Below are positions 16,885-34,759 of a stretch of 42,712 nt of DNA, one piece after another. This DNA comes from Chloroflexi bacterium bin125 (GTDB lineage: Bacteria > Chloroflexota > Dehalococcoidia > Bin125): NCBI GenBank assembly GCA_002239025.1, contig MPNM01000025.1:1-42712 (forward strand), read 5' to 3'. The notes under the pieces are model-generated. The model was not told the DNA's origin, made no database searches, and worked only from the letters and a program-made list of their open reading frames with translations. Both the position numbers and the translations under genes were made by a program. How positions within the stretch are numbered: the stretch's first letter is position 1; each line of letters opens with the position of its first letter.

Positions 16885-18053
16885 TGCCCAATCGCTCGCC
16901 ATTGTTCGGTCGCCGCATCCATATCGCGGGATCGGTCGCTCGGGATCCAGACGTCGCGAAAGCTAGCGATGTCGACCAAGCCCGCGAGTTGGTGGAAACG
17001 CTCGTTCTCCAGTTGATGGAACATGGCGCGACCTTCGTTTTACCGGTTGACGCTGAGCCGGTGCGAGATGAGGATAAGCAGCCCGTCTGCTTCGATTGGC
17101 TGGTTTGGCGCACTCTGTAGAAGCACTTTCACAAGCGACCCGACAGTGCCGTGGACCCGCTGGCGGTCGGCGTGCAACACCACAAGAATGAGCAGCAGAT
17201 CCCCGCGCAGTACCAGACACTTTGGGACGATCTCCGAGGCACAGCTCACGTGCAGATCGAAAACGTGTCCCACTGGAACATGAACAGCAAGCGGATGGAG
17301 GCTCAAGCCCGCTTTGGCGACATCCTCATCGCAGTTGGAGGCGCTGAGGGAGTCCAGTTCCTTGCGAACCTCTACCACGAGGCGGGCAAGCCGGTTGCTC
17401 CACTGAATTGTCCTGTGACTAATCCTGACCAGGGAGCGCTCAAGCTGTTCAACAGAGGCCTATCTTCGGCCGAAACGGCGGGCCTGTTCAAGGTGGGTGG
17501 CGTGTTGAGTGCGCACAACTGGATCAATCGCATCAATTTCACCACACGCACACCAGTCGCTGAGCGCGTAGAGCAGATTCTGGCACTGCTCGAAGCACTC
17601 GATCCGCCGCAAGCGTTCGTTATCCGACTCCTCGATCCTCAGAATCCCAACTATGAGGATGCGCAGGAATTCTTCGATACGGTGGTCCAGCCGATTGTGG
17701 AGGGCGAACTTGGTTATCGGTTGGTCGTGGTCGATGGACATCAGCCGTTTGAGCATGCCCGAATCGATCAGGACATATTCGCCAAGCTGCACCGCAGCCG
17801 AGTGGTTGTTGCGGACATCACTGGTTCACGTCCGAACTGCTTTCTGGAGCTCGGTTATGCACTCGGCCGTGGCCTGCCGGTGATAATGACATTGCGTGAA
17901 GGTGAACCTCATCCGTTCGATCTCACGACCTTTGCCGCACTGCATTGGCAGGCCATCGGAGGTGTCGAGGAGCGGCGTCGCAGGTTCCGAGAGCACTGGG
18001 GGGCCATCGAGTCGCGTCCACCGCTTGTGCCTCCCGAACCGCTCATCCCATGA
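16884..18053 (+). pseudogene. SLOG (STALD-like) plus nucleoside-deoxyribosyltransferase/TIR-like effector, one in-frame stop
   Basis: The ATG at 16884 shares a base with the preceding TGA. The N-terminal SLOG-like half opens RRIHIAGSVARD, passes CFDWLVWRTL, and continues after TAG 17118-17120 in the same frame to GDILIAVGGAEGVQFLANLY and GKPVAPLNCPV, the nucleotide-binding glycine motif. The C-terminal half (AFVIRLLDPQNPNYEDAQEF, SRVVVADITGSRPNCFLELG) resembles nucleoside 2-deoxyribosyltransferase/TIR-like folds that bind or cleave nucleotides such as NAD. The likely role is the effector triggered by the CBASS second messenger. The stop splits the SLOG domain; the downstream 300 residues could start at GTG 17151 but would lack the first strand. 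Ends with a 4-base overlap on the exonuclease gene. Confidence 0.8.
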
Positions 18054-18643
18054 CAAACGGGCGTGATCTGTTCGTGTCGGTCGATATCGAGACCGCTGGG
18101 CCAATCCCTGGTGAGTACAGCCTCCTTGCGATTGGCGCGTGCCTGATTGATGCCCCCGAAAGGACGTTTCTCTGCTATCTCCAGCCGCTGAACACCAATG
18201 CTGATCCTGCGGCGTTGAAGGTCACTGGTCTGTCCCTGCAGGAGTTGGAGCGAACAGGACTGGCCGCAGAGCAAGCCATGACCCGGTTCGCCACGTGGCT
18301 TGAAGCAAACCGCAGCTCCGCTGATCGGCTCGTGTTCGTGGGACTCAATGCCCCGTTTGACTGGTCGTTTGTCAACTACTACTTCCACCAGTTCGTGGGA
18401 GAAAACCCCTTTGGTTTCACAGCGCTCGACATCAAGGCGTACTACATGGGCGCTAGTGGAGTGGCCTGGACAGAATCCACATCGAGCGGCATGGCGGAAG
18501 CCTTCGGGATCGATGAGACGGGCGATCACAATGCTCTCCATGATGCTCTGTACCAAGCCGAACTGTTCAGACAGACTCGGAATCAAGTTTCCAGCCGTGA
18601 TCTGGGTGGAGGCCTTCCCGGAGGGCAGAGGAGGGTCGAGTGA
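18050..18643 (+). CDS. DEDDh-family 3'-5' exonuclease
   Basis: 197 residues from ATG 18050, overlapping the preceding stop by 4 bases. RNase T/DnaQ-like exonuclease signatures: the first DxE motif in FVSVDIETAGPIPGEYSLLA, the second Asp in VFVGLNAPFDWSFVNYYFHQ, and the DEDDh His/Asp in DHNALHDALYQAELF. This fold removes nucleotides from single-stranded DNA or RNA 3' ends with two metal ions. Coupling to the SLOG gene upstream and closeness to the QueC-like gene (155 bases downstream) suggest it belongs to the CBASS operon, where it may degrade nucleic acid or trim signalling nucleotides; that role is inference. No polymerase domain is attached. Confidence 0.85.
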   Translation: MTNGRDLFVSVDIETAGPIPGEYSLLAIGACLIDAPERTFLCYLQPLNTNADPAALKVTGLSLQELERTGLAAEQAMTRFATWLEANRSSADRLVFVGLNAPFDWSFVNYYFHQFVGENPFGFTALDIKAYYMGASGVAWTESTSSGMAEAFGIDETGDHNALHDALYQAELFRQTRNQVSSRDLGGGLPGGQRRVE

Positions 18644-18798
18644 GTAGCTCCAGTGGCGCGAACAGTTGGCGGAAGGGTAATGGGCGAGTTGCGAACGAAA
18701 GCGCGGCTCGATGAAGGTGGTTGAGAGATTGGTAGGCTGTCCTCGCTCGAAAGGAATTGGCCTCGCCAGCAAGAGGGAGCAGCGAAGATGGGTCACGG

Positions 18799-19353
18799 AT
18801 GAAGCGTCACACCTTAGTTCTGCTGAGTGGAGGGATCGACTCCTCGACCATCTTGGCGCAGCGCGTTGCGAGCGGCGCGGAGGTGTCTGCCATTTTCATT
18901 GACTATGGACAGGCTGCCGCGCGAACTGAGTGGGACGCGGCTCAGCTAGTCGCCAGCCACTACGGAGTCTGCGTAAGAAGGCTTCAGATCGCGGCGAACC
19001 TGGTTTCTTCAGGCGGCGAGATCTTCGGTCGGAACGCGGTGCTGGTTCTGCTGGCTGCAGCAACGACGCACAAAAGGCCACTCGAAGTCGCGATCGGCAT
19101 TCACGCGCTCTCCGAGTACTACGACACAACACCTCTGTTCACGCGCCACGTGACGAGATTGCTCGATGGATACTCAGGCGGGGCCGTCGCTCTCTCGGCT
19201 CCATTCCTGGCGGAATCCAAGTCGGACATCATCGAGGCTGCCATGAAGTCCGGCCTTCCCTTCGAACTTACCTACAGCTGCGAGACGGGGAATGCCCCGG
19301 CATGCCGCCAGTGCCCCTCTTGCCTGGATAGGCGGCTCCTTGACTCAGTGTGA
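18799..19353 (+). CDS. cap9: QueC-like ATP-pyrophosphatase of type IV CBASS (Cap9-like)
   Basis: 184 residues, shorter than true QueC (about 220-240; a genuine one lies at 32100-32837). It keeps the PP-loop LLSGGIDSS, the FGRNAVLVLLAA stretch matching the RN motif of QueC, and the zinc cluster SCETGNAPACRQCPSCLDRR. QueC makes 7-cyano-7-deazaguanine from 7-carboxy-7-deazaguanine with ATP and ammonia. Type IV CBASS operons are defined by QueC-like and TGT-like proteins, and recent work links them to attachment of a deazapurine to a protein of the system. ATG 18799 is chosen as a methionine directly before the PP-loop strand. The next gene overlaps its end. Confidence 0.88.
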   Translation: MKRHTLVLLSGGIDSSTILAQRVASGAEVSAIFIDYGQAAARTEWDAAQLVASHYGVCVRRLQIAANLVSSGGEIFGRNAVLVLLAAATTHKRPLEVAIGIHALSEYYDTTPLFTRHVTRLLDGYSGGAVALSAPFLAESKSDIIEAAMKSGLPFELTYSCETGNAPACRQCPSCLDRRLLDSV

Positions 19354-20341
19354 GACACCGCACGCCGGCGCCCGCAACGTAGCGACGCTGGACGTGCGAA
19401 CACCCCTGCTTGTGCCCTCGTTCTCCAGCCGCGGATTCCCGGAGGTCGGAGCAGTCTTCTCAGAGATGGCCGACAGGCTGTTTGGCGTGTGTCTGATCAG
19501 CGCTTGGGACATTGACCAGGGTCACCTATCTCCGGATGCGTTGCTCGCGACCAACGTCGTAGTCCTCGACAGCGGGGGCTACGAGGCACAGGACCAACTG
19601 ATCGGCAACTCAGCCTCGAGACACGACTCGCCTGTTCAACTCTGGTCGGTTCCGCGATTACACCAGATCCTGAATCAGGCGGACGAGTCAGCGAATGTTC
19701 TGGTGGTCAACTTTGACCGGCGTACCGACATACACGGACAACTCGATGGCGCACGCCTCGATCAGGAGCGAGCACAAGGCCACGCCTTTGACTTTCTCGT
19801 CAAACCGGAATCCTCGGACGAACTCGTCAATGTTCCGCGGCTCGCGACCGTAACGTCTGATCTGGGCGAGTTCGATGCAATCGGGGTCACCGCGCGAGAA
19901 GTCGGGACGTCGCTAACAGACCGCTGTCGCTCGATCGTCTTGCTCCGTCACATTCTGACTGATGCCGGGCTGAGCCTTCCGATACACGTGTTTGGCGCGA
20001 TCAGTCCGATTGAGGTGCTCACCTACTTCTTCTGCGGCGCCGATATCTTTGATGGACTCGATTGGTTGCGGACGGCTTACCGAAGCAAGAACACGATTCC
20101 GATCGACGAAGCAGCGTACGAGGAAGAGAACTGGGGGGTCCCTGACCAGGAACTGTGGCTCAAGGAATCGACCAACAACTTGTCGGTCCTCTATCTGCTC
20201 CAGCAGTCGATGAGATCCTATGCCGAACACGGCTCGTTAGAAGTGCTGTGTCTCGAATTCCCAGCGGCGCGAAGAGCTGCAAGGATCGCCAAGATCTGCG
20301 GCGCTGAGGTTCGAACGCAAGGTGCAGACGATGGCAGGTAG
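19340..20341 (+). CDS. cap10: TGT-like protein of type IV CBASS (Cap10-like)
   Basis: About 333 residues; I propose TTG 19340, which overlaps the QueC-like stop by 14 bases, but the start is uncertain. The fold resembles tRNA-guanine transglycosylase: TPLLVPSFSSRGFPE at the start, VVLDSGGYEAQD (base-binding Asp), and GADIFDGLDWLRTAY, whose FD matches the nucleophile region of TGT. The CxCxxC-His zinc site expected near the C-terminus is missing; that stretch reads ENWGVPDQELWLKES. Loss of the zinc site and no tRNA-binding features suggest it acts on something other than tRNA, as proposed for type IV CBASS. Its end overlaps the CD-NTase start. Confidence 0.85.
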   Translation: MTQCETPHAGARNVATLDVRTPLLVPSFSSRGFPEVGAVFSEMADRLFGVCLISAWDIDQGHLSPDALLATNVVVLDSGGYEAQDQLIGNSASRHDSPVQLWSVPRLHQILNQADESANVLVVNFDRRTDIHGQLDGARLDQERAQGHAFDFLVKPESSDELVNVPRLATVTSDLGEFDAIGVTAREVGTSLTDRCRSIVLLRHILTDAGLSLPIHVFGAISPIEVLTYFFCGADIFDGLDWLRTAYRSKNTIPIDEAAYEEENWGVPDQELWLKESTNNLSVLYLLQQSMRSYAEHGSLEVLCLEFPAARRAARIAKICGAEVRTQGADDGR

Positions 20342-21209
20342 CTCACCACGCCGCTTGAGTTCGGTCAGACCGCCCCTCCCAGAAGCCGAGATCAACGAGT
20401 ACCTGAGGCAGCGACTCCGCGACTATAACGATCGGGATGTCGCGAGCATCGCTCGCCACATCGACGTCTTGCGCAAGGCTCTGGAATCGGAGTTCGATGA
20501 ACTGGTCCGCCCGCTGTTTGGCGGATCGGTCGGTCGACACACATACGTTGATGGTCTCAGTGACATCGACGTACTCATGGTGATTGAGGGATCGGCTCTG
20601 TCCGAACAGTCGCCGAGTGATGCACTACAGCGCATGGCCAGATCAATCAGAGAGCGGCTGCCTAGCACCACCGTGTCGGTCGGCTCTATGGCAGTGACTA
20701 TCCAGTACTCGGATCGACACGAAGTCCAGGTGCTTCCCTCGATCAAGAGCCGGACGGGTATCCGCATCCCGATGCCCGGTGGTGCCGGTTGGAGCCGCAT
20801 ACTCCATCCCGAGCGCTTCGCTCGGAAACTCACGAACGTGAATCAATCCAACGGCGGACGGGTGGTTCCCACCATCAAGCTGGTAAAGACGCTAGCTAGG
20901 CGATCTGTTCAGAGCGACCGCGGACGGCTTAGTGGCTATCACATTGAGTCGCTCGCGATTGACGCTTTCCAGAGCTATCAGGGTCCACGCGATCTGCAGA
21001 GCATGCTCCGCAGATTCTTGACGCATGCCGCCAGTGCCGTGCTACAGCCGATCAGAGATTCGACGGGTCAATCCCGTTTCGTCGACGGATACCTCGGATC
21101 AGCTGGGAGCACTGAGCGACGGCGGGCAGCGGAGAATCTGAGACGGATGAGGCGCAGCCTCGATGCATGCCGAAGTCATCGGGATCTCGATAACCTGTTC
21201 CGCCAGTAA
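20331..21209 (+). CDS. second CD-NTase (type IV CBASS)
   Basis: 292 residues from ATG 20331, overlapping the TGT-like gene by 11 bases; a GTG at 20322 is possible. Nucleotidyltransferase motifs: FGGSVGRHTYVDGLSDIDVL (GS and DxD) and the third acidic position in HEVQVLPSI, where Glu may stand in for Asp. The helical C-terminal domain includes PTIKLVKTLARRS and YHIESLAIDAFQ. It would synthesise the messenger that activates the SLOG protein just downstream. Sequence is clearly different from the first CD-NTase 5 kb upstream, so this is a separate enzyme and not a duplication. In type IV systems the CD-NTase is the presumed target of QueC/TGT-like action; not testable here. Confidence 0.9.
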   Translation: MAGSSPRRLSSVRPPLPEAEINEYLRQRLRDYNDRDVASIARHIDVLRKALESEFDELVRPLFGGSVGRHTYVDGLSDIDVLMVIEGSALSEQSPSDALQRMARSIRERLPSTTVSVGSMAVTIQYSDRHEVQVLPSIKSRTGIRIPMPGGAGWSRILHPERFARKLTNVNQSNGGRVVPTIKLVKTLARRSVQSDRGRLSGYHIESLAIDAFQSYQGPRDLQSMLRRFLTHAASAVLQPIRDSTGQSRFVDGYLGSAGSTERRRAAENLRRMRRSLDACRSHRDLDNLFRQ

Positions 21210-21232
21210 CCATTCCCAGAGAGGGACGGACC

Positions 21233-22066
21233 ATGAATGGGCGCTTCATTCTGATCGCAGGAAGTGCGAGCAAAGATTGCTCTCCGGACACACTCGACCT
21301 CGCTATCGGATTCGTGCAGTCATTCACCAGAGAGATCCTCGACCGTGGCGGTGGAGTCGTTGTACTTGCTGGGGACGAGGAGGGGACGAAGGACGATCGT
21401 GGAACACCCCACATCTTCGATTGGGTCGTGCTGAGAGAGGTAGAGCGATATGCGGAACGTACGACAAAACCGCCCCGTATCTACGTCCGGATCGTGATGT
21501 CCGACACGGCCGAGGAACGGAAGATCGAAGATGCGAATCTGCAGGTCCTGCGGAATCTAGTTCAGAGGAACGTCGCAAACCTGCAATACATCCAGAGTCA
21601 CTTGTTTACGGGTGGTGAGTACCGGAATAGGCAGGTCGAGATTTCCGACGCCATGCTCGCTATCGGTGGTGGCAAAGGAACGTACTCGACAGCAGAAGAG
21701 ATGATTGGACGAGAAAAGCCCGTCTTTCCCGTGGATCTGCCCTTGGGCGCTCTTAGCGATGACGGTAACGGCGCAGTCCTGCTCCATCAAGAGATGGCAT
21801 CAGATCCAGAGTCGTTCTTCCCGTTTACATACGATGACGCTATTCACAAGTTGAGCCTGACAAAGCTAAGTCGGGGAATCAACGAAGCAGACGGCGCAGC
21901 CAGAGTTGCGGTGGAGATGTTCGAATCTGAGTTTGACGCCCATCCGAGAGATGGGCTTCGTGCGAGAACGACCAGCCGTCTCCGTGCACTCGCTGTGGTA
22001 GCGCCCTTGTTCTCTGCGATGTCACTGATTTTGAAGGGCTTCGAGTTCTTTCGGTCGGACAGTTGA
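21233..22066 (+). CDS. SLOG-domain (STALD-like) probable CBASS effector
   Basis: 277 residues from ATG 21233, preceded by GAGAGGGACGG. It parallels the first SLOG gene: GRFILIAGSASKD at the start, HIFDWVVLREVE in the middle (compare CFDWLVWRTL), and AMLAIGGGKGTYSTAEEMIG followed by KPVFPVDLPLG, the glycine-rich nucleotide site. SLOG domains bind nucleotide ligands and act as sensors in Thoeris, CBASS and short Argonaute systems. The C-terminus has a hydrophobic stretch (LRALAVVAPLFSAMSLILKG) that could be one membrane helix, so membrane damage is a possible output; no enzyme domain is attached. Last gene of the type III/IV run. Confidence 0.75.
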   Translation: MNGRFILIAGSASKDCSPDTLDLAIGFVQSFTREILDRGGGVVVLAGDEEGTKDDRGTPHIFDWVVLREVERYAERTTKPPRIYVRIVMSDTAEERKIEDANLQVLRNLVQRNVANLQYIQSHLFTGGEYRNRQVEISDAMLAIGGGKGTYSTAEEMIGREKPVFPVDLPLGALSDDGNGAVLLHQEMASDPESFFPFTYDDAIHKLSLTKLSRGINEADGAARVAVEMFESEFDAHPRDGLRARTTSRLRALAVVAPLFSAMSLILKGFEFFRSDS

Positions 22067-22737: not shown

Positions 22738-23238
22738 TCAATCTCGAAGATGCCCTATGCGTCTGGCCAATTCAGGTTTGGGCAAGGGGCACCTCGGATC
22801 GTTGAGCATCGCATCCAACGCGACCAAGGCTTGAGTACCAGGCAGCACACCCGCGACAAGCATCCTGTCGACGATCCAGAGCGCGTCCAAGTGCGAAATG
22901 CTCTTCGACTCTGCGAAGCGACGCATGGTCCTGTCTTCGGTCAGGATGGGCCATCTATGAATTCCGGCAAGTGTGAGCGCAAATGCGTCTACGAGGCTGA
23001 GCGCTGCTCGTTCGGCTTGGTAGGCAACGGCCGTCGCCACGCCGTCCGTACTCAGCGCTTCCACCCTCAGTCCGAAACCCAGCAGGTCTTGTCGGCTGTA
23101 GGAGCCGAGGTCAATCAGTTCCTCGTGGAACAGCAGGTCGGGCACGGCGAACTGATACTCCAGTTCGAACATCGTGTGCAGTATTTCTCGCTTCGAGAAC
23201 TCGATCAGGATGGAACTGTCGCTGACCAGGACCTTCAT
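22738..23238 (-). CDS. PIN-like protein partnered with XRE-ImmA regulator
   Basis: 166 residues. PIN-fold features: VLVSDSSILIEFSKREIL (first Asp), VPDLLFHEELIDLG (Glu), LVDAFALTLAGIHRWPILTEDRTMRRFAE (later acidic residues). It starts 8 bases after the stop of the XRE-ImmA gene, so the two form an operon. PIN proteins are usually metal-dependent RNases and toxin-antitoxin toxins; pairs of XRE-COG2856 proteins with PIN-like partners are a known toxin-antitoxin arrangement. It may also be a downstream part of a CBASS regulatory module. Cleavage target unknown. Confidence 0.7.
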   Translation of the reverse strand: MKVLVSDSSILIEFSKREILHTMFELEYQFAVPDLLFHEELIDLGSYSRQDLLGFGLRVEALSTDGVATAVAYQAERAALSLVDAFALTLAGIHRWPILTEDRTMRRFAESKSISHLDALWIVDRMLVAGVLPGTQALVALDAMLNDPRCPLPKPELARRIGHLRD

Positions 23239-23246
23239 CGGTTCAC

Positions 23247-24299
23247 CTAGACGTTCGAGCCGGCCATGATCTTCTCGATCTCGCTGACCTTGAGCCTCAG
23301 CAGTTCCGCAGCCTTGGATTGCGAAATCTCATTCTCTGCGAGAGCTCTGAGACACAGGCGCCGGAACCGTGAATGGCTCTCGGTTCCCTTTAGTGGAGCT
23401 GGTTCATCGGTTCTCCAACTGCTTCCAATGCCGTCGAAGATGGCGGCTACGGTGCTATCCGTAATGATCCGCAGGTCCCGCATCCGCATGACGAGCGCGG
23501 CGGCGCTGATGCCGAACATGTGCTTGATCTCGATGAGCTCAGCGAATCCGAAGTTGTGCCGGTGGCGTCCGAGTTCGCGAACCAACTCCTCTGCGGGCGC
23601 TAGGAAGGCACCGGCAAAGCGCTGACAGGCTCGCTCCTTGTCCACCGAGGACGGGAGGTCCATCACCATATGACCCAATTCGTGCGCGATCGTGAATCGT
23701 TCTCGTTCGAGGGAAGTGTCGGTCGAGTAGACCACAGCAGGAACATCGTCTCCGTCCGCTTGACGCACTCGGCAACTGAGGCCATCTACTGAACCAGGCA
23801 GATCCAGCCTGAACACCTTAATGCCGCGTTCCTCTAGCAACTCAGGCATGTCCGGGATCGGGCCGCCGCCAAGATTCCATGCGTCGCGAAGTCGGTGGGC
23901 TGCCGCTTCCGCCTCTGCCGCAGAGGCGATTGGATAGGGAGCCCCATCCGGTTCGTCATGCCGGGAGGTGTCGACTCCCAGGATCTCCTCGACCTGCAGG
24001 TAGCGGTCCACGTGATCGAGGACCTCTGCCTCCACTGACGCGCGCTCCCGAACCTTGGTTGAGGTCGGCTTTCTGAACTCGACCGAGTCCAACGAGATTC
24101 TCGTCGGACTCAAGAGATAGCTGATGGGTACGTCGAGGGCTTGCGCGAGGGCGATCGTCACGGTCGAACTCGGCATCATCTCTCCCCGCTCGTACTTGCC
24201 GATTGCTTGGGCGGAGACGATGCCTCCTGCGACCGAGGACAGTGCGCGTAACGACAGGCCGCTGCGTCTTCGGGCGAGTTTGAGACGTTCGCTGAACAT
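23247..24299 (-). CDS. XRE helix-turn-helix fused to ImmA/IrrE metalloprotease
   Basis: 350 residues from ATG 24299, chosen for the GGAGG seven bases upstream; the frame is open to 24329. Residues 1-60 are an XRE DNA-binding domain (LKLARRRSGLSLRALSSVAG, IGKYERGEMMPS). Residues about 175-270 are a COG2856 zinc peptidase with RERFTIAHELGHMVMDLP (HExxH) and ACQRFAGAFLAP. The C-terminal 60 residues look like another short helical segment (SQSKAAELLRLKVSEIEKIM). CBASS loci often carry a separate CapH repressor and CapP protease that together induce the system on DNA damage; this fused protein, divergent from the patatin/CD-NTase operon, may do the same in one chain. The alternative is the antitoxin of the PIN gene. 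Confidence 0.82.
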   Translation of the reverse strand: MFSERLKLARRRSGLSLRALSSVAGGIVSAQAIGKYERGEMMPSSTVTIALAQALDVPISYLLSPTRISLDSVEFRKPTSTKVRERASVEAEVLDHVDRYLQVEEILGVDTSRHDEPDGAPYPIASAAEAEAAAHRLRDAWNLGGGPIPDMPELLEERGIKVFRLDLPGSVDGLSCRVRQADGDDVPAVVYSTDTSLERERFTIAHELGHMVMDLPSSVDKERACQRFAGAFLAPAEELVRELGRHRHNFGFAELIEIKHMFGISAAALVMRMRDLRIITDSTVAAIFDGIGSSWRTDEPAPLKGTESHSRFRRLCLRALAENEISQSKAAELLRLKVSEIEKIMAGSNV

Positions 24300-24315
24300 G
24301 GGAGTTCCTCCATCT

Positions 24316-24354
24316 GGTTTACAAACCATGGTACACTATCGGTATGTGTAAACC
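24316..24354. promoter_or_regulatory. inverted-repeat operator in the divergent promoter region
   Basis: GGTTTACA (24316-24323) and TGTAAACC (24347-24354) are perfect inverted copies with 23 bases between them; an inner half copy GTAAACC/GGTTTAC-like lies at 24318-24327 (GGTTTACAAACC). The site covers the start region of the XRE-ImmA gene, 17 bases upstream of its ATG, and lies 135 bases upstream of the patatin gene. The TTTACA hexamers on both strands could serve as -35 boxes. It is a natural operator for the XRE domain controlling both directions. Confidence 0.65.
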
Positions 24355-24489: not shown

Positions 24490-25410
24490 ATGACGCGACG
24501 CAACGACTCGTTCAGGATTCTAGCGTTAGACGGGGGCGGTATCAGAGGGGTCTATGCCGCGCACGTACTCGCCAAAATGGAAGACGTGCTCAGGTTACCC
24601 GTGAGTCACCGCTTCGATCTCATCGCAGGAACCAGCACCGGGTCAATCTTGGCGGGCGCCGCGGCGACGGCCATCCCGATGCGGACTGTCGTCGAACTCT
24701 TCGAGAGTCAGGCCGGCCGCATCTTCAAGAGGAAAAGGGTTAGCTGCTCTCCCTTCCTGCGCAGCCGCTACTCGACAGAACCTCTCCACAGCGCAATCGG
24801 CGAATACCTGCCTCCAGTCACCATGGGCGAGATCGCAACCCCTCTGATGATCACGAGCTCGGACATTTCGACCGGCAAGGTGCATGTCTTCAAGTCTCGG
24901 TACCTGAAGGACTTGGGCGGTCCCTACCTGCGGGACAGTGATGTTCGACTGAGAGACGCAATCTTGGCGTCCTGCGCCGCGCCAACATACTTCAACCCCA
25001 GACAGGTCGGCGAATACCTCCTCGCAGACGGTGGACTCTGGGCCAACAACCCCACGATAATTGCGCTCACCGAGGCGTTGTCCAAGTTCGGCCGACCACT
25101 CGGCCAGATCCGCGTGCTCTCTCTCGGAACCGGGCGCGCTACCAGCTTCTTCTCTAAGGGCAGATCCTGGGGTTTGCTGACCGGCTGGGGCGGCGAAAAG
25201 CTGGTCAGCTACGTGCTGGGCCTGCAGTCTCAGGCGTCAACCAACATGGCAAAGCTGCTGCTTGGCGATCGCCACATACGGCTCGACCCAGAGATTCAGT
25301 CCTGGAGTCTGGATGACACGACGCACCTGCAGACCCTCAAAGCGCTAGCCGACCTGGATTTCAGCCAGTACGGCGACACGATCTTGACCAGTTTGGACAA
25401 CGACCAATGA
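24490..25410 (+). CDS. capV: patatin-like phospholipase (CapV-like CBASS effector)
   Basis: 306 residues from ATG 24490 (MTRRNDSFRILALDGGGIRG); upstream in-frame sequence to 24379 is not conserved-looking. All patatin motifs are present: the oxyanion glycine loop DGGGIRGVYAAHVL, the nucleophile Ser in GTSTGS, and the catalytic Asp in LADGGLWANNP. CapV-type effectors are activated by cyclic dinucleotides such as 3'3'-cGAMP and hydrolyse membrane phospholipids, killing the infected cell. Its stop overlaps the start of the CD-NTase by 4 bases, which makes the effector assignment strong. Length fits CapV (about 300-360). Confidence 0.92.
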   Translation: MTRRNDSFRILALDGGGIRGVYAAHVLAKMEDVLRLPVSHRFDLIAGTSTGSILAGAAATAIPMRTVVELFESQAGRIFKRKRVSCSPFLRSRYSTEPLHSAIGEYLPPVTMGEIATPLMITSSDISTGKVHVFKSRYLKDLGGPYLRDSDVRLRDAILASCAAPTYFNPRQVGEYLLADGGLWANNPTIIALTEALSKFGRPLGQIRVLSLGTGRATSFFSKGRSWGLLTGWGGEKLVSYVLGLQSQASTNMAKLLLGDRHIRLDPEIQSWSLDDTTHLQTLKALADLDFSQYGDTILTSLDNDQ

Positions 25411-27050
25411 CAAGGCGAGTCGACGACTTCCGTCAGTTCATGAGCGGGCACGTGAATCTCAACCCTACTCGATACGAGCGGTTGAAGAGGAGCGACAAGG
25501 CCGTCAGCGATTACCTGGCACAGCATCTGGTCGGGTTCGAGACGACCGAGAGGCAAGGCTCATACGCCCTCCGCACAACTATCAGACCGGTCAAAGACAG
25601 CGACGAGTTCGACGTGGACCGCCTCGTCTACTTGGAGTTCGATGAGACCAAGTCAGCGAAGGACTACATCGACGACGTGTACCAGTGTCTCAAGGACAAC
25701 GGCAACTATGCCGACATAGCTCAGAGGAAGACCAGGTGCATCACCGTCAATTGTGCGGACGATTTCAATATCGACTTAATTCCCTGCATCACCCTCAACG
25801 GCAGCCACTTCATCTGCAACCGCAAGACCAACGGGTTCGAGCCAACGGACGGTAACGGATACCGCGACTGGTTCAACCAGAAGAACAGGATCACCAACGG
25901 CAATCTCAAACTCGTCACACGGTTGCTGAAGTACCTGAGGGACCACAAGAAGTCCTTCACGGCACCGTCGATCCTGCTCACCACGCTGATTGGCAGCACG
26001 GTCCACGACTGGGAAGACGACACAGACTTCAAGACCATTCCCGATGCGCAGTTGACCGTGATCACCCGGCTCGACAGATATCTCCAGTCTCATCCGATCA
26101 TGCCCGATATCCGTAATCCCGTTCTGCCAAGCGAGACCTTCACGCGGCACTGGGATCAGAACAAGTACGACCGTTTCAGGGACATGATCTCCAGCTACGC
26201 CACGAGAATCAGGGCGGTATATGAGGACCAAGACGAGCAGTCGAGCGTCAGAAAATGGCGGGATCTCTTCGGCGGCGGGTTCGGCAGCCTGACCGCCACG
26301 GCAAGCCATTCCGTGGCGAAGACGGCACCGAGAATAGTCGCGCCGAGCAGGCCGTATGCCGTCGCGGACATTCGTCCGGCTCGAGGCCGGCTCAGCCTGA
26401 GCCAAGCCGAGCTCGAGTGGTTGGCGTCGGAATTCCCCGGCCTCGGTTGCGACTCAGAGGCAGCGCTGATCGAAGGCGAGTTGGAGTTGCGGGCCGCATA
26501 CGACGGCGAAGCGGGGAAGCTACTGATCGGCAGCGACGATGCGACCGCGAGCATGGAAACGTACCTCTGCGATTCCTTCACGATAAGGATCGAACTGGAT
26601 TCCCTCGACCAGAACGGCTGGCCGCATGTCTACGAGGTCGAAGGAAGGCATGAGCGGATCGCCGAGCAGGAACGCATCGACGGCATCGATCTGCACTTCT
26701 TCGGGAACGGCTCTTGCTGCCTGGGCCTCCAGCTACTGGCGGAGCGCCGCACGACGCTCAGGGAATTCATGGACGAAATGGTGGTGCCGTTCTTCTACCG
26801 ATTGGCGTACACCGACAGCTACGGCATTCAGGCTTCCAGGCAGCACCTCTGGGATGAGTACGACCATGGCAAGCTCGGATTCCAGCAGTATCTGTCTTCC
26901 CTTGCCGATATCGCCATGCAGGGTTTGAGTAGGAATGATCCCTGCGCTTGCGGCAGAGGACGGAAGTACAAACGATGCCATCTCGGTGAGATCGAGCGAT
27001 TCAAGCGAGACCCAAGAACGAGATATTGGGTTGAGGGAAAACCAGGGTAG
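25407..27050 (+). CDS. CD-NTase fused to E2-like domain and SEC-C zinc motif
   Basis: 547 residues from ATG 25407 (4-base overlap with capV). Residues 1-285 are a DncV/SMODS-like CD-NTase: GSYALRTTIRPV, FDVDRLVYLEF (DxD), DFNIDLIPCI (third Asp) and a helical OAS1-like part. After a linker of about 50 residues, residues about 330-500 look like an E2/RWD fold: LIEGELELRAAYD, FTIRIELDSL, WPHVYEVEGR, then HFFGNGSCCLG with cysteines at the position of an E2 active site, and FMDEMVVPFFYRLAY. The end is a SEC-C zinc motif, RNDPCACGRGRKYKRCH. Stand-alone E2 proteins in short type II CBASS link the CD-NTase to a target; here the domain is in cis. The E2 identity is by fold pattern only. The CD-NTase call is firm. 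Confidence 0.88.
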   Translation: MTRRVDDFRQFMSGHVNLNPTRYERLKRSDKAVSDYLAQHLVGFETTERQGSYALRTTIRPVKDSDEFDVDRLVYLEFDETKSAKDYIDDVYQCLKDNGNYADIAQRKTRCITVNCADDFNIDLIPCITLNGSHFICNRKTNGFEPTDGNGYRDWFNQKNRITNGNLKLVTRLLKYLRDHKKSFTAPSILLTTLIGSTVHDWEDDTDFKTIPDAQLTVITRLDRYLQSHPIMPDIRNPVLPSETFTRHWDQNKYDRFRDMISSYATRIRAVYEDQDEQSSVRKWRDLFGGGFGSLTATASHSVAKTAPRIVAPSRPYAVADIRPARGRLSLSQAELEWLASEFPGLGCDSEAALIEGELELRAAYDGEAGKLLIGSDDATASMETYLCDSFTIRIELDSLDQNGWPHVYEVEGRHERIAEQERIDGIDLHFFGNGSCCLGLQLLAERRTTLREFMDEMVVPFFYRLAYTDSYGIQASRQHLWDEYDHGKLGFQQYLSSLADIAMQGLSRNDPCACGRGRKYKRCHLGEIERFKRDPRTRYWVEGKPG

Positions 27051-27150: not shown

Positions 27151-28245
27151 CTAGTGTCCTGAGTCGGGAATACGGTTGAGATATCCGGCGAGGTTGTTGA
27201 GGATCTGGTCAGCGGTCTAGTGCCAGACGCATGGACGCGGATTCTCGTTCAAGCCGCCGACCCAACGCTCGACGGCGGAGGTCAGGTCGGCCATGGTGCA
27301 GTGGGCGCCGCGCCGCAGCCATTTCGTCGTCAGTTCCGCGAACCAGCGCTTGACCAGGTTCATCCAGGAACTGTAGGTCGGGGTGAAGTGAAACGTGAAG
27401 CGGGGATGACCATGGAGCCAGCGCTGGATTTCGGCGGTGAGGTGGAAGGCAACGTTGTCCAAGACGACATGCACAGCGAGGTCGTTGGGCACCTGCTCGT
27501 CGATCAGGTCGAGGAAGCCGCGGAACTCGCGGGCACGGTGTCGCGGAGTCAGGTCGGCGATTACGTGGCCCGAGGCGATGTTGAGCGCGGCGTACAGATT
27601 GGTGGCCCTATGTCGTACGTAGCCGTGGGTCTGGCGACGCGGCACGCCGGGCACAACGGCCGCGTCGGCCCGGTGCGGTCGAGCGCCTGGATCTGGGTCT
27701 TCTCGTCCACGCAGAGCACGACGGCCACTTCGGGCGGGTTTGAGGTACAGACCGGCCACGTCGCGCACCTTGTCGATGAACTGCGGGTCGGGAGAGAGCC
27801 GGAACTGCTCGAACAGGTGCGGCTTGAGCCAGAAGGCGCGCCAGATCCTGGAGACTGCGGTCTGCGACATTCACATCTCAGCGGCCATCGAGTGGGGCGA
27901 CCAGTGGGTCGTGTTGCGCGGTAGCTGTTCTAGAGTCTTGACGTTCACCGCTTCCACTTGATCATCGCTGAACGTGCGGGGCGCACCGGGACGCGGCTCG
28001 TCGCTCAGACCAACGAGCCGCTGTTTGGCAAAGCGCCGCCGCCGCTTGCCGGCTGTGACCGGATGGCAACCAAGGGCCGCGCCGCTCCCAATATTCGCCT
28101 GCCCGGCTTCTGCCGCGAGCACGATCCGGCTGCGGAGGGCCAGGGCCGGAACCTTGCTCGGTCGGCGCGCCCAGAGCTCCAGAGTCTCTCGTTCCTCCGC
28201 AGCCAGCACGATCGTCACCGTCGGACGTCCCCGTTGGGTACGCAT
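27151..28245 (-). pseudogene. IS630 transposase, multiply broken
   Basis: The ancestral frame starts at ATG 28245 (MRTQRGRPTVTIVLAAEERE). It has an in-frame TGA between SMAAEM and MSQTAVSRIW near 27873, then two compensating frameshifts around 27655-27760 that garble the region of the first catalytic Asp (CVDEKTQIQALDRT appears only in another frame), then resumes with NLYAALNIASGHVIADLTPR and LAVHVVLDNVAFH (second Asp) and WMNLVKRWFAEL (Glu). A further in-frame TAG at 27217-27219 cuts off the tail, whose continuation TADQILNNLAGYLNRIPDSG runs into the terminal repeat. It cannot make an active DDE enzyme. Confidence 0.88.
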
Positions 28246-28332
28246 GACCCTCCACCGAGAACCGCGGACGGCCAAAACGAAACCATCAACGCCGTGCCCC
28301 TTTGTTCATCGCATTAGCGACTCAGGACACTA
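27152..28332. mobile_element. IS630-family element, decayed
   Basis: Perfect 13-base terminal inverted repeats GTGTCCTGAGTCG (27154-27166) and CGACTCAGGACAC (28318-28330), flanked by TA on each side (27152-27153, 28331-28332), the target duplication of the IS630/Tc1 group. It carries one transposase gene on the minus strand, which is broken. The element lies between the third CBASS operon and the Dpd cluster. Confidence 0.9.
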
Positions 28333-28333
28333 G

Positions 28334-29423
28334 GAATGCTCTGAACAGGGGTCATTGAGGGTGTTTCGTGCTGATTGGGCGGTTGTGGTTGCTTGACGGT
28401 GATGAGTGGTGGTCTGGGGACGGTGGGTCAGGGCCGGTTTCGGGGTCCGATTGGCGCCGTGGTGGGGGCCAAGCCGAGCGGCGGGCGCAGGTCACCCAGG
28501 GCTAGGCCAGTTGCGGCTCGGCGATCAGCAGGTTGGTCAGGCCGAGCAAGAGCGCCAGTCGGTTGTGGTTCTTGGCTAGGCCGCGATAGCGCACCTTGTC
28601 GTATCCGAAGCGACGTTTGATGTAGAGGAAGGGATGCTCGACCTTGGCCCGCAGGGACGCTCGCGCAGCGCGAGCCGGTGGTCCGGCGGCAGCCGGCGTC
28701 GCCCCAGGCCTCGCGCTCGGCGCCATGCAAGAGCCGATGCGCCTCGGTCACGTCGGCCGTGTTCGCTGCGGTCGTGCTCAGGCTGTGGGTGAGCCCGCTG
28801 ATGGCGTCGACCCCGATGTGCAGCTTCATCCCGAAGTGCCACTCGTTGCCCTTGCGGGTCTGATGCATCTCCGGGTCGCGCGCGCGGGCCTGGTTCTTGG
28901 TTGAAGACGGCGCCGCGATGATGCTCGCGTCGACGATCGTGCCCGCCTGCAGCCGCAGTCCCTGGCCGGCCAGATGCGCGTTGATCGTCTCCAACAGCGC
29001 CGCGCCCAGTTGATGCCGCTCCAACAGGTGGCGGAAGTGCAGGATCGTCGACTCGTCCGGGATCGGACTGCTGAGGTTCAGTCCGCAGAAGCGGCGCACC
29101 GACTCGGCCTCGTAGAGCAGGTCTTCCATCGCCGGGTCGCTGAGGTTGTAGCAGAGCTGCACGCAGTGCACGCGCAGCATCACGGCCAGCGGGTAGGGGC
29201 GGCGTCCGCGCCCCGGCTTCGGGTAGACCGGCTCGACCCGCGCCTCCAGCGCCGTCCAGGGCACCAGTGCATCGAGCCGCTCCAGGAACCGCTCGCGCCT
29301 CGTCTGGCGCTTCTTCTGCTCGAACTCCAGGCTGGCAAACGTCGGTTCCTGCATCAATCCGCTCCCTCCGGCTCTCGCCTTCAAGATCCTAACCCTCTAC
29401 CGGAGACCTTGATCAGAGCGTTC
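28334..29423. mobile_element. IS5-family element nested at the edge of the IS630 copy
   Basis: Imperfect terminal repeats GAATGCTCTGAACAGGG (from 28334) and, inverted, GAACGCTCTGATCAAGG (ending 29423), flanked by CTAG on both sides (28330-28333 and 29424-29427), a target typical of the IS5 group. The left CTAG uses the last C of the IS630 end and its TA duplication, so this element arrived second. Removing both gives the original junction GCCTCTAGGTCTTTG. Confidence 0.87.
28502..29354 (-). pseudogene. IS5-type transposase with internal deletion and frameshift
   Basis: ATG 29354 follows GGAGGGAGCGG. The N-terminal half is intact: [57 protein letters not shown] (first catalytic Asp) and [12 protein letters not shown]. 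After REAWGDAG (about 28690, second Asp region) the frame shifts and some 30-45 residues normally between this point and the C-terminal motif are missing. The tail reappears in another frame as [20 protein letters not shown] (catalytic Glu) and [18 protein letters not shown], ending at 28502. Inactive. Confidence 0.87.
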
Positions 29424-29452: not shown

Positions 29453-30730
29453 TCACGGGGGTGTCGGAGCGTCTGGGCGTTTGTTCCACTCAAAGTGTTC
29501 CAGTCGAGGTTGCCATGCAAACTGTGCGCGCCGTTCACCTTTCTCCACGAGCGCTTTCTCGATTCGGCGCCGCAGCACCCACAGATTGTGAAATCCTCGG
29601 CGCCTGTTCCGATTGTTCCCACGGAAGATCACTACCTCGACGCCAAGTTCCGTGCATATCTGGCATGGACACTGGTCCCATGGACGGCCCCGCAGGAGGT
29701 CCCTGTAGAGTTGATCTCGTTGGGTAGCGCTCCGCTCATAGGTCCGGGACCCCAACATGGAGTCATACGCTTTTATTCTCTTCATTGTCTCGCGTTGGCC
29801 AAGTTCCCGCCGCGCGAAGGACCGAACTGCATTGAGTGCGTCCTGCTCCGCTTCCCGCAAATCGCTGTAAGCTGCCCCGCTTCGAGCAACTAGAGATCCA
29901 TTCAAACCCCGATCGTTGGTCGCCATGGGAATCCGAATCGCCGCAAAGGCCCCACCATCTACGGTGTAGTAGTTGTCTTTTGCGGCAAGCCAGGCCTGCC
30001 TCAATGGTGCGGCGCTGTCCGCGCTTGCAACCCCTAGGTCAAGAAGTAATGGCAGCAGAGAGGCCCGGGCGACGCCAAAGACATGGATGGCAGCCCTAGC
30101 GGCGACCACCTGCGAAACAGCATTGAGGATTCGGGATACTGTCGGCGAGTTGCTCCTTGCGAGACCACCGACCGCGATGTACCGGTAGCCCATTTCGATA
30201 AGAGATTCCGCCGCCTCCGCGTAAGTGTGTTCGTCCCAACCCTGGACCGCACCTACGGGAGTGAAATTGAGCTTGTTGTCGCGGTGCATGCGCAGAAAGT
30301 CGTCTGCATTGCGTTGCGTCAGCGCGTACCGATGGTCGCGCTGATCTTCGAACTCCGGTAGCACGATGTGGTCAACCGACACCCCGTAGTTGAAGCCCAG
30401 TCGATCGTAGTATTCGAGAATTTCTTCTGTCGTGAACGCTGGGTCGCGTTGATCGAGGTACCCGAAGGCCCCACAGTCCCCGAACAACTCAAGGTCAGCT
30501 GGCAACCGCAGGTATTCCCGAATGCCAACCTCTTCAACCCGCTTGCGCTTCCGTCCAGCCTGCTCAAGTGCCATCCGCGAAACAAGGATGCCGTCGTAGA
30601 TCCGTTCATCGAACAGTTCGTGTGCATAGAGGTCGTCCTCATAGGGCTTGCGCTTCAGTGTCAACCGATCGGTGAGGAAGTCATAGCCGGGATCGACTCG
30701 ATCATCCCAATCGGGAAGGAAGAACTTCAC
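29453..30730 (-). CDS. dpdA: DpdA, 7-deazaguanine DNA transglycosylase
   Basis: 425 residues from a GTG at 30730 that overlaps the preceding stop by 4 bases. A TGT-superfamily TIM barrel: FGDCGAFGYLDQRDP (base-binding Asp region), VSVDHIVLP, YIAVGGLARS, and GVASADSAAPLRQAW, which holds the Asp nucleophile position. The C-terminal zinc site is intact (CPCQICTELG with a His about 25 residues on), unlike the TGT-like CBASS protein. DpdA exchanges guanine in DNA for 7-cyano-7-deazaguanine, later converted to the amide form, marking host DNA as self. It is the last gene of the minus-strand queD-queC-queE-dpdC-dpdA run, 26 bases from an insertion sequence. Confidence 0.9.
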   Translation of the reverse strand: MKFFLPDWDDRVDPGYDFLTDRLTLKRKPYEDDLYAHELFDERIYDGILVSRMALEQAGRKRKRVEEVGIREYLRLPADLELFGDCGAFGYLDQRDPAFTTEEILEYYDRLGFNYGVSVDHIVLPEFEDQRDHRYALTQRNADDFLRMHRDNKLNFTPVGAVQGWDEHTYAEAAESLIEMGYRYIAVGGLARSNSPTVSRILNAVSQVVAARAAIHVFGVARASLLPLLLDLGVASADSAAPLRQAWLAAKDNYYTVDGGAFAAIRIPMATNDRGLNGSLVARSGAAYSDLREAEQDALNAVRSFARRELGQRETMKRIKAYDSMLGSRTYERSATQRDQLYRDLLRGRPWDQCPCQICTELGVEVVIFRGNNRNRRRGFHNLWVLRRRIEKALVEKGERRAQFAWQPRLEHFEWNKRPDAPTPP

Positions 30731-31332
30731 TTCGCCTCACCTTTGCTTCCCCACTTGCGCAGCGTCTTTGCAAGCCCGATGGAGATGGCATCGTCAACGA
30801 AGGCAGTAAACCTTACAGCGGCGACTTCCCTAGCCGCAACGCGTAACTCTCGCGCTTGAGATGTCCCGCAAGGAACGATCAGGGTGGTCTGGTGTCGTCT
30901 TCCAAACGCAGGCGATGTGAAGTACATCTGCGATCCTGGCCCACGGAACGGCGCCCCGACCGCCTGTAGGTACAACAGGGGTAGAACGAAGACCGCCACG
31001 TCATAGGTCAAGATTTGGTCTTGAAGGGCAGCGGGAATTCCCAAGTCGAGCGCTCGTTTACCTGCCAGGCCAACACCAAGACCGGTGAATGTTGCCTCAT
31101 AGGCAGGGATCCGGGAGTGCTCATCGACGAGGCCGTATCCCGCAGAGACTATTGACCAGGCGACTGATTCACCCGCGCCGTTACTCCGCCAACGATCCAC
31201 CGCATTGCGGATGCGAATGTGCGCACGCCCGGCGTATCGTTCGCGCGCCGGGAGTATGCCTTGGCCGGTGGGAAGCGCCAAGTCGTCCGTCAACTTCCGT
31301 TTCGAGCAGGCACTGACCACGAGGACGCGCAT
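30727..31332 (-). CDS. dpdC: YaaA/DUF6884-like protein, DpdC candidate
   Basis: About 201 residues from ATG 31332 (MRVLVVSACSKRKL); a start at 31356 adds eight residues. The opening VVSACSKRK and the segments ARERYAGRAHIRIRNAVDRW and WSIVSAGYGLVDEHSRIPAY are typical of the YaaA/DUF328-related superfamily. In Dpd clusters such a protein is thought to hydrate the nitrile of 7-cyano-7-deazaguanine in DNA to the amide. Its place directly before dpdA, with a 4-base overlap, supports this. It could instead be one of the related DUF6884 proteins with another role, so the symbol is tentative. Confidence 0.68.
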   Translation of the reverse strand: MRVLVVSACSKRKLTDDLALPTGQGILPARERYAGRAHIRIRNAVDRWRSNGAGESVAWSIVSAGYGLVDEHSRIPAYEATFTGLGVGLAGKRALDLGIPAALQDQILTYDVAVFVLPLLYLQAVGAPFRGPGSQMYFTSPAFGRRHQTTLIVPCGTSQARELRVAAREVAAVRFTAFVDDAISIGLAKTLRKWGSKGEAK

Positions 31333-31389
31333 TGCGGTATCAAAGCCATGAGTCATTGCAGCCGCACTCCTACGGGAGCGCTGTCCTCC

Positions 31390-32103
31390 TTATCGGCCAC
31401 GCCTATCCCCCCAAAGCAAGATGTGCAGGCGGGTCGAAAATCGGTAACCTCGTCGCGCACATCCCTCAGCGAGCCAAGCTGAACGCTCGTCGAGTTGAGT
31501 TGTCGAAGTGCCTTGTGGCATGAGAATCACGCGCCTGCGTGGGACTTCGTAGCGGCGCACAAGACCCTCCACTTCGTCAAGATCAGTGGGCGCATCAATC
31601 ACAAACTTGAACCACGCATGCTCTGTTCCGGCGAACCAGCGCAGGGGTCCATCGCCTAGGCGTCGACTCAGCAAGTTGTCTGAGTTGGCGAGCTTTGGTG
31701 AGACATTCCACTGTGCGACCCGCTCTGCCAGGACGGCCTGTGGCTCCAGCGTTCCGTTTGTCTCAAATTCTACCCTGTGTCCGGCGCGCACCAGCGATTC
31801 AACCGGTTCCGAGAGCGCGTTCTGCTGTAAGAGCGGCTCTCCACCCGTGATGACAACGTTTTCGACACCGAGCGTCGTGACCCGCGCGACAACCTCGGCG
31901 CTCTCCACGCGGACGATTTCCGACTGTTGATCGTAGTGCTCCCAATCCCACGTGTACCTAGTGTCGCACCAGGTGCACGCAAGGTTGCAGAGGGACAGGC
32001 GTACGAACGTACTTGGCCGGCCTGCTGAAGCACCCTCGCCTTGTATGGAGGCGAAAATCTCTGGTTCTCCAGAGGGCAGGCGGGCCATCTTGAGCGATGT
32101 CAT
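31390..32103 (-). CDS. queE: QueE, 7-carboxy-7-deazaguanine synthase
   Basis: 237 residues; ATG 32103 overlaps the queC stop by 4 bases. A radical SAM enzyme with the cluster-binding CNLACTWCDTRYTWD (CxxxCxxC form) and typical downstream segments EIFASIQGEGASAGRPSTFV, VVITGGEPLLQQ and RVEFETNGTLEPQ. It rearranges 6-carboxytetrahydropterin to 7-carboxy-7-deazaguanine using S-adenosylmethionine as cofactor. The C-terminal half includes VILMPQGTSTTQLDER. It works between QueD and QueC and is the only QueE in the window, so its product might also feed the QueC-like protein of the CBASS operon. Confidence 0.95.
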   Translation of the reverse strand: MTSLKMARLPSGEPEIFASIQGEGASAGRPSTFVRLSLCNLACTWCDTRYTWDWEHYDQQSEIVRVESAEVVARVTTLGVENVVITGGEPLLQQNALSEPVESLVRAGHRVEFETNGTLEPQAVLAERVAQWNVSPKLANSDNLLSRRLGDGPLRWFAGTEHAWFKFVIDAPTDLDEVEGLVRRYEVPRRRVILMPQGTSTTQLDERSAWLAEGCARRGYRFSTRLHILLWGDRRGR

Positions 32104-32837
32104 TCAGCCGTCAGTGCCGGATCGGTGACGCCCGCTTCAGCGAATCCCTTAGCCCGCAGCAGGCAACTGTCGCACTTGGCACAAGGTGCCACGCCGCCCT
32201 CGTAGCAACTCCAGGTCCGGTCGAGGGGAGCCCCAGTCGACATCGCCTGACGTACGATATCTGCCTTCGTCATTTGGAGAAGTGGAGTTTCGATCGTGAA
32301 CGGGACGCCGTACTGCGTCCCGATCTTGCTCCCCAATCGAAGAGTCTCAGCCAAGCTGTCGTAAAACTCCGGCCGACAGTCCGGATAGCCGCTGTAGTCA
32401 ATGGCATTCGCAGCGATAAAGAGCGCGGCCTCCACGGAATCTGGTGAGGCGCCTTCCAATTCCAACACGTTGAGGACCTGACTCTCCAAGTAGGCCGACG
32501 CCAGGCTTAGCAGGAATGTGTTCCGCATCGGCACATACGTGATCGGTATGTCAGCGGTCATGTCTTCGGGGACTCGACCCTCAGGAATCTCGAACCGGTC
32601 CGGATTGGTAAGGGCTGAGTACCAGGCGAGTTGGCGGAAGAACGACACGTCAACAACTTCCTGACGGAGCCCGAGCGCGTCGGCCACGCGGGTGGCCGCA
32701 TCGATTTCTCGACTGTGGATTTGTCCATAGTGAACTGTGACCGCGATCAAGTCGTAGCCCGCCTGTACCGCCAGGGTTGCCGCAGTTGTGGAATCCAAAC
32801 CGCCGGAGAGCAGGATCACACCCAGTTTTCGCTTCAT
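32100..32837 (-). CDS. queC: QueC, 7-cyano-7-deazaguanine synthase
   Basis: 245 residues from ATG 32837. Full QueC signature: PP-loop LLSGGLDSTTAATLA, VHYGQIHSREIDAA, YVPMRNTFLLSLASAY, and the zinc cluster TWSCYEGGVAPCAKCDSCLLR. It converts 7-carboxy-7-deazaguanine and ammonia with ATP into 7-cyano-7-deazaguanine, the base used by DpdA. It sits between queD and queE with 4-base overlaps on both sides. It keeps segments (for example FIAANAIDYSGYPDCRPEFY) that the shorter CBASS copy lacks, so this is the biosynthetic one. Confidence 0.96.
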   Translation of the reverse strand: MKRKLGVILLSGGLDSTTAATLAVQAGYDLIAVTVHYGQIHSREIDAATRVADALGLRQEVVDVSFFRQLAWYSALTNPDRFEIPEGRVPEDMTADIPITYVPMRNTFLLSLASAYLESQVLNVLELEGASPDSVEAALFIAANAIDYSGYPDCRPEFYDSLAETLRLGSKIGTQYGVPFTIETPLLQMTKADIVRQAMSTGAPLDRTWSCYEGGVAPCAKCDSCLLRAKGFAEAGVTDPALTAE

Positions 32838-33277
32838 GAACGCACTCCTACATCACTTCGTTCCTCGTCTGGGGCGTACTCGGCATACTGGTTTCCCTCC
32901 CAGATGCGGACACGCTGTAGGTCACAGCCGAGCTTGTCCTGTAAGACGTGGAATAGCGTAGCCGCCATGACCTCAGCCGAAGGATTTCTCCCTGGAAAAC
33001 AGTAGAGTTTGCTCTCGGGAATCGTTTGCAGGGCGCAGATCAGCGTCTGGTCGCGGTCGTTCAGCAGGAACGCGTGGTCCCAATGAGCGTCGATCCACTG
33101 ATTCAGGGGCTGCTTGATGTCGCCGAAGTCGACTCCAAGGTCAAGACCACTCAATTCCAGCCGCGAAAGAAAGACCTCGGCACGATATGTGTGGCCGTGT
33201 GGAGACGCGCACTTGCCGTTGTAGCCGAGAAGGCGATGTGCGGCATCGAACGATACCTCGACGCGATTCAAGAACAT
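32834..33277 (-). CDS. queD: QueD, 6-carboxytetrahydropterin synthase
   Basis: About 147 residues from ATG 33277, which has AAAGGGG upstream; a GTG at 33307 overlapping the dpdB stop is the alternative. Zinc-binding and catalytic residues are in FDAAHRLLGYNGKCASPHGH (Cys and HxH) and DHAFLLNDRD, with LGVDFGDIKQPLNQWIDAHW between. QueD makes 6-carboxytetrahydropterin from dihydroneopterin triphosphate, the first committed step to 7-deazaguanine. The C-terminus has VRIWEGNQYAEY, the substrate-binding Glu region. No folE is present, so GTP cyclohydrolase must come from elsewhere in the genome. Confidence 0.94.
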   Translation of the reverse strand: MFLNRVEVSFDAAHRLLGYNGKCASPHGHTYRAEVFLSRLELSGLDLGVDFGDIKQPLNQWIDAHWDHAFLLNDRDQTLICALQTIPESKLYCFPGRNPSAEVMAATLFHVLQDKLGCDLQRVRIWEGNQYAEYAPDEERSDVGVRS

Positions 33278-33303
33278 GGGTGCCCCTTTCATGTGCCCCG
33301 AAG

Positions 33304-34479: not shown

Positions 34480-34759
34480 TCTTCAATGTCCTCTTTACGT
34501 CTGCAAACTGGAAGTCCTGGGACGTAGAGGAGTCACAATTGCAGTGGGCATTATCTCATGCCTTACGGAGATCGACAACCCTCGGGCGACCGCCAAACGG
34601 CTAGGGATTCCTCGGGCCTCAGATGAGCATTCCGATCCAATCTGGTCCGCCTCCCGTCGAACGCAGCCACGATCCGATTTAGAATGCTGCGAATGCTGGC
34701 CCGCGGTTGGGACTTCTGACCGGCACCAATCGGGGAATCGCAGCATCGATGGGACACAC
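34480..34759. promoter_or_regulatory. divergent promoter region of the Dpd cluster
   Basis: The 280 bases between the starts of dpdB and dpdE must drive both arms. The plus-strand frame is open through this region but has no protein-like character. No clear operator or -10/-35 pair was identified by eye; assignment rests on gene layout. Confidence 0.45.

Follow-up and report, generated by a model that had tools for sequence, protein, structure and literature searches.

According to the available portions of PMC13373217 and PMC10904395, CapH and CapP form a two-gene regulator of CBASS and Bub operons (Lau et al. 2022 as cited in PMC13373217), in which CapP cleaves CapH on ssDNA, and PprI senses ssDNA likewise. 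Pairs of an XRE-COG2856 protein with a PIN protein were previously described by Makarova et al. 2009 (PMC2701414); the sections available to us predict a protease-repressor-toxin circuit with possible further unknown targets. PIN-like partners of the D25/RmrA domain were also noted in NetFlax (PMC10440598), and VapKSC (PMC13373217) offers a precedent for an immune-type damage sensor tied to a PIN toxin. None of the parts of the locus described here is new; the fused XRE-ImmA/PIN pair is already a toxin-antitoxin candidate. In the literature searched, which was short on subscription papers and preprints, we found no report of a CBASS link or a GTTTACA operator for XRE-ImmA/PIN.

We analysed a 42,712-nucleotide stretch of DNA from Chloroflexi bacterium bin125 (the window), in which a regulator-PIN pair on the minus strand and a capV/CD-NTase operon on the plus strand diverge across an operator (Table 1). 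An earlier note on this DNA had proposed an HTH and an ImmA-like protease on one chain, which is confirmed by the Pfam matches HTH_3 (3e-13) and Peptidase_M78 (1.5e-11) on the 350-aa protein; the PIN gene does follow after a gap of 8 bases, as the note had it. The ORF caller places the regulator start at 24329 (a 360-aa ORF), which is probably too early. Judged from the sequence, ATG 24299 is preferred because GGAGG precedes it by 7 nt and the alignment of homologues to MFxxRLKLAR agrees with it, and the inverted repeat therefore falls in the promoter region upstream of the regulator gene, outside its coding part. The PADLOC model RmrA covers residues 13-358 of the 360-aa ORF (4e-56), and capP, ranking below RmrA, covers residues 160-286 only (1.3e-13). 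The PIN protein matches its Pfam family at 2e-4 (22.3 bits, slightly under the cut-off of 23.6), and the PADLOC scan gave no match for it, RmrT included. The facing operon combines the CD-NTase and the effector that make up a CBASS system, with Pfam matches to Patatin (1.5e-30) and SMODS (4.5e-26) and PADLOC matches to a cyclase (9e-103) and CBASS_lipase (237 bits vs a cut-off of 200).

Table 1. Coordinates of the regulator-PIN pair, its operator and the facing CBASS operon in the window
Feature	Position	Strand	Basis
Fused XRE HTH (1-67) and ImmA/IrrE-type metallopeptidase (~124-296) regulator, 350 aa, RmrA-like	23247..24299	-	ATG 24299
PIN-domain protein, 166 aa, putative RNase toxin	22738..23238	-	Pfam, AF2 fold, conserved acids
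Shine-Dalgarno GGAGG of regulator gene	24307..24311	-	sequence
Operator arm GGTTTACA, regulator-proximal	24316..24323	+	inverted pair, conserved in relatives
Operator arm GGTTTACA on minus strand (TGTAAACC on plus)	24347..24354	-	inverted pair, conserved in relatives
TGGTACACT, putative extended -10-like element toward capV inside operator	24329..24337	+	inferred promoter, weak
capV patatin-like phospholipase, CBASS effector	24490..25410	+	likely ATG 24490
CD-NTase with E2-like and SEC-C C-terminal part	25407..27050	+	SMODS, PADLOC

The surroundings are rich in other defence genes. A second CBASS-like locus of type IV-like composition (QueC, TGT, CD-NTase and a Cap17-like N-terminal effector; 18757-22066, plus strand) is convergent with the PIN gene; in one relative (L021) a QueC/TGT CBASS is instead divergent from the regulator. 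A Dpd cluster for 7-deazaguanine DNA modification (DpdA, a DndB/DGQHR-like protein, DpdE and DpdF) also occupies 29453-40670, which makes the window a dense defence island. Transposase-like ORFs at 27217-29384, whose frames appear broken in translations read by eye, lie just 3' of the CD-NTase, and a second Cap17-like N-terminal domain at 17151-18053, which matches from profile position 83 and overlaps an exonuclease ORF (17945-18643), is possibly a truncated effector.

To compare folds, we modelled the regulator and the PIN protein with AlphaFold2 (pLDDT 89 and 95) and collected structural neighbours by Foldseek and VIA. The closest fold to the protease part of the regulator is CapP from Thauera (Foldseek rank 1, E 0.004; VIA Z 11.5 over 159 residues at 3.2 Å), and IrrE/PprI gives a VIA Z of 10.9. 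The HTH fold resembles those of SinR, ImmR and CapH, and a sequence-profile search recovers CapP, CapH, IrrE and ImmR, with PDB entry 9vzy (an XRE protein of 393 aa) also among the matches. The metalloprotease site of the CapP type (HEXXH plus E) is intact: H206 is kept in 49/50 homologues, and E207, H210 and E222 in 50/50. The least confident stretch of the regulator model, residues ~71-80, lies between the HTH and the remainder, and on the model this linker is a plausible candidate cleavage site. VapC4 and other PIN proteins are fold neighbours of the PIN protein, which resembles VapC-type folds and has both the PIN fold and its conserved acidic residues (D7 in 43/44 homologues, E40 in 40/44, D84 in 44/44 and D102 in 43/44).

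The earlier note had suggested a CapH/CapP-like switch fused into one chain. We approached this comparison from the CBASS side by a reverse census of one CD-NTase clade in Caulobacteraceae and Sphingomonadaceae, where 546 genomes yielded 17 CBASS operons. The fused regulator occupies the divergent slot in 6/17 (L114, L115, L120-L122, L131), separate CapH and CapP genes occupy the same slot in 9/17 (L116-L118, L123-L128), and CapH alone stands at the locus edge in 2/17. PADLOC confirms capH and capP in three scanned loci, and the CD-NTase of a CapH+CapP locus (L116) is 79% identical to that of a locus with the fused regulator (L051). None of the five CapP loci checked has a PIN gene after CapP, and the fused regulator of this census (L131; L140) is followed by PIN. 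The presence of CapH+CapP in the identical slot of sister operons, together with the linkage described below, supports the suggested switch. A capV/CD-NTase operon of the window's own class (L099/L134; capV 74% and CD-NTase 70-75% identical) has neither such a regulator nor the operator, so the module is separable from the CBASS operon.

The fused regulator is thus like CapH+CapP in joining an XRE HTH to an ImmA/IrrE-type protease in divergent orientation to CBASS, in having Thauera CapP as the best structural neighbour of its protease and in interchanging with the two genes within one CD-NTase clade. It differs in being one chain instead of two genes, with no separate CapP, and in adding a C-terminal helical region and a PIN partner. 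Since the two-gene feature fails, we count the fused pair as a variant that would work like CapH+CapP, outside CapH+CapP proper. With RosmerTA it shares the fused XRE-ImmA chain and the full-length RmrA match, placing a putative antitoxin of the RmrA type at the locus, but a PIN protein stands in the toxin slot and no described RmrT family is present. The gene-pair type is that of the XRE-COG2856 and PIN pairs in the accessible part of PMC2701414; CBASS as the divergent target and the conserved GTTTACA operator go beyond what is set out there. CapK/CapS and VapKSC (PMC13373217) likewise show an immune-operon regulator module with relatives coupled to a VapC/PIN toxin; however, they use kinase/STAS chemistry, whereas the regulator of the window has a protease domain, and their immune-operon regulator and PIN module lie at separate loci, unlike the single locus found here.

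Whether the fused regulator recurs beside CBASS, as the earlier note had asked, was addressed by scanning one genome per species, which gave 79 regulator loci, nearly all with a PIN homologue after the regulator. CBASS genes are divergent from the regulator in 32 of the 72 loci with more than 1.5 kb of upstream DNA, a share that may be raised by collecting the set through similarity to a CBASS-linked query; SMODS matches whose coordinates resembled those of a locus but whose strand, side or contig differed (L042, L044, L056, L073, L067 C315) were left out of the linked count. After clustering, the linkage is 26/60 at 95% identity and 15/41 at 80%. This recurrence goes against the outcome that the earlier note had named as refuting, PIN-partnered homologues mostly unlinked to CBASS. 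The window and these 32 relatives have the arrangement known from CapH+CapP, adjacent to and divergent from an immune operon. Upstream SMODS genes were observed in 28 loci against 0.05 expected from genomic density. The linked systems are of types II-like, III and IV and comprise CD-NTase+E2+SAVED-HNH, several capV operons, TRIP13/HORMA and QueC/TGT (L021), with strict head-to-head geometry and the first CBASS start usually 130-190 bp from the regulator. Mapping CBASS linkage onto the regulator tree requires 10 changes, and well-supported branches force 6 of these. As a control, we took 14 RmrA homologues from the window's class that lack a PIN partner (L005-L018), and 0/14 had a CD-NTase or capV within 1.5 kb (Fisher p=0.0015, with short flanks and a small sample).

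The remaining 40/72 loci are not beside CBASS, and the regulator-PIN module is therefore not CBASS-exclusive. The scanned non-CBASS loci showed no informative PADLOC family among their divergent neighbours, which disfavours mere clustering in defence islands. Six further loci face ThiF/JAB-type (ubiquitin-like) operons (L047, L056, L061, L073, L081, L093). Opposite a PIN-type regulator in a genome of the window's class (L004:171-1298) stands an MBL-like protein with weak similarity (3e-10) to the leading gene of the E1/JAB operons in L056 and L061. In L050 the PIN gene (11050-11300) is broken, its fragments matching both strands (rearranged or misassembled), with regulator and CBASS intact. 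Two MAG contigs labelled Chloroflexi and Dechloromonas (L082, L071) carry regulators grouping with or identical to alphaproteobacterial ones, reflecting either a binning error or recent transfer.

The inverted repeats that the earlier note saw in the shared divergent region are an exact pair of arms (Table 1). The 3.68-Mb genome of the organism contains a single copy of the pattern GTTTACA-N20-25-TGTAAAC and none of the reversed control pattern. Of 78 regulator loci, 68 have one or more exact arms between -75 and -15 of the regulator start, and 55 have two in this proximal region; by shuffles, one exact arm is expected there in 0.6%. The arms are 29-30 bp apart, start to start, with a spacer of 22 or 23 bases in 62/68 loci with a good pair, and they are kept at ~-54/-24 from Chloroflexota to Alphaproteobacteria, whatever genes lie opposite. 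Because the operator is equally conserved without CBASS, autoregulation alone explains the arms. No other intergenic block is as well conserved as the arms among the three closest Chloroflexota loci. In the alphaproteobacterial intergenic alignment, conservation covers the two arms and a third GTTTACA, present in many of these loci ~75 bp further on and ~13 nt from the CBASS start codon. In the window and its Chloroflexota relatives there is no third half-site near capV, and the capV-side DNA is poorly conserved; ~136 bp separate the operator from the capV ATG.

We also looked for promoters in this region. The element TGGTACACT aligns with TGCTATAAT in L020, but a sigma-70 consensus scan toward capV in the window found no promoter and missed this element too; -10-like hexamers at the right spacing were overall no better than shuffles. 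Reading the operator itself as a sigma-70 promoter, with one arm as -35 and a -10 before the other arm, was no better than shuffled spacers in both directions and was rejected. A perfect TATAAT occurs in the operator of some loci only (L029, L053, L088).

We consider it reasonably probable, from sequence and by analogy, that the pair corresponds to a CapH+CapP switch in fused, toxin-armed form and would repress itself and the divergent CBASS operon until a stress signal arrives. On the same basis autorepression is likely, and repression of CBASS probable. The XRE domain of a regulator multimer would bind the two GTTTACA arms, repressing the regulator-PIN operon and, in CBASS-linked loci including the window, the divergent CBASS promoter, while the same chain would neutralise the putative PIN RNase as its antitoxin. 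The ImmA/IrrE protease may be activated by a stress signal, which by analogy would be ssDNA arising in DNA damage or phage replication, so that the chain, possibly by self-cleavage, is cut near the flexible HTH linker (residues ~68-82). Cleavage would then derepress CBASS and leave PIN freed or newly made, giving two abortive outputs. That one signal-activated chain serves both outputs simultaneously, the same protease event derepressing CBASS and releasing the PIN RNase, is a possibility that we hold only tentatively. The earlier note had offered a switch or a toxin-antitoxin pair; these ideas are compatible, and the anatomy is consistent with a regulator doubling as an antitoxin.

Several observations stand against this toxin-armed switch: the lack of a third half-site near capV, the poorly conserved DNA on that side, the missing consensus sigma-70 promoter, the retention of the operator without CBASS and the L099/L134 operon without the regulator. 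An unlikely, but still appreciable, explanation is that the pair is a self-contained XRE-ImmA/PIN toxin-antitoxin module (RosmerTA-like) that regulates itself alone and accumulates in defence islands as a selfish or island-guarding element. Such a module would keep its operator at loci without CBASS and match RmrA over its full length, as observed, and it agrees with the toxin-antitoxin-like description of XRE-COG2856 and PIN pairs in the part of PMC2701414 available and with D25 and PIN-like partners in NetFlax (PMC10440598). However, it does not account for the strict head-to-head geometry at 130-190 bp, the third half-site at the CBASS start in Alphaproteobacteria, the occupation of the CapH+CapP slot or the lack of an informative PADLOC family beside the scanned non-CBASS loci.

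An operator this far upstream of capV, with no capV promoter confidently placed inside it, could also suit a regulator that activates CBASS, or both activates and represses it, but the related CapH and ImmR are repressors and the third alphaproteobacterial site, at most ~15 bp from the CBASS ATG, sits in a repressor-like position, making activation improbable. A chance neighbourhood, shaped only by transfer of adjoining pieces of a defence island that does hold a second CBASS locus and a Dpd cluster, is scarcely credible given the excess of upstream SMODS genes across CBASS classes and phyla.

The toxin-armed counterpart of CapH+CapP would be a candidate controller of wide occurrence, equipped with a nuclease of its own and with a readable operator. 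For XRE-COG2856/PIN pairs, whose regulatory role was left open in 2009, CBASS is a concrete candidate target, and the operator motif and the slot swap make the proposal directly testable. The dual output, if true, would unite CBASS control and a toxin-antitoxin system in a single abortive switch that is evolutionarily interchangeable with CapH+CapP.
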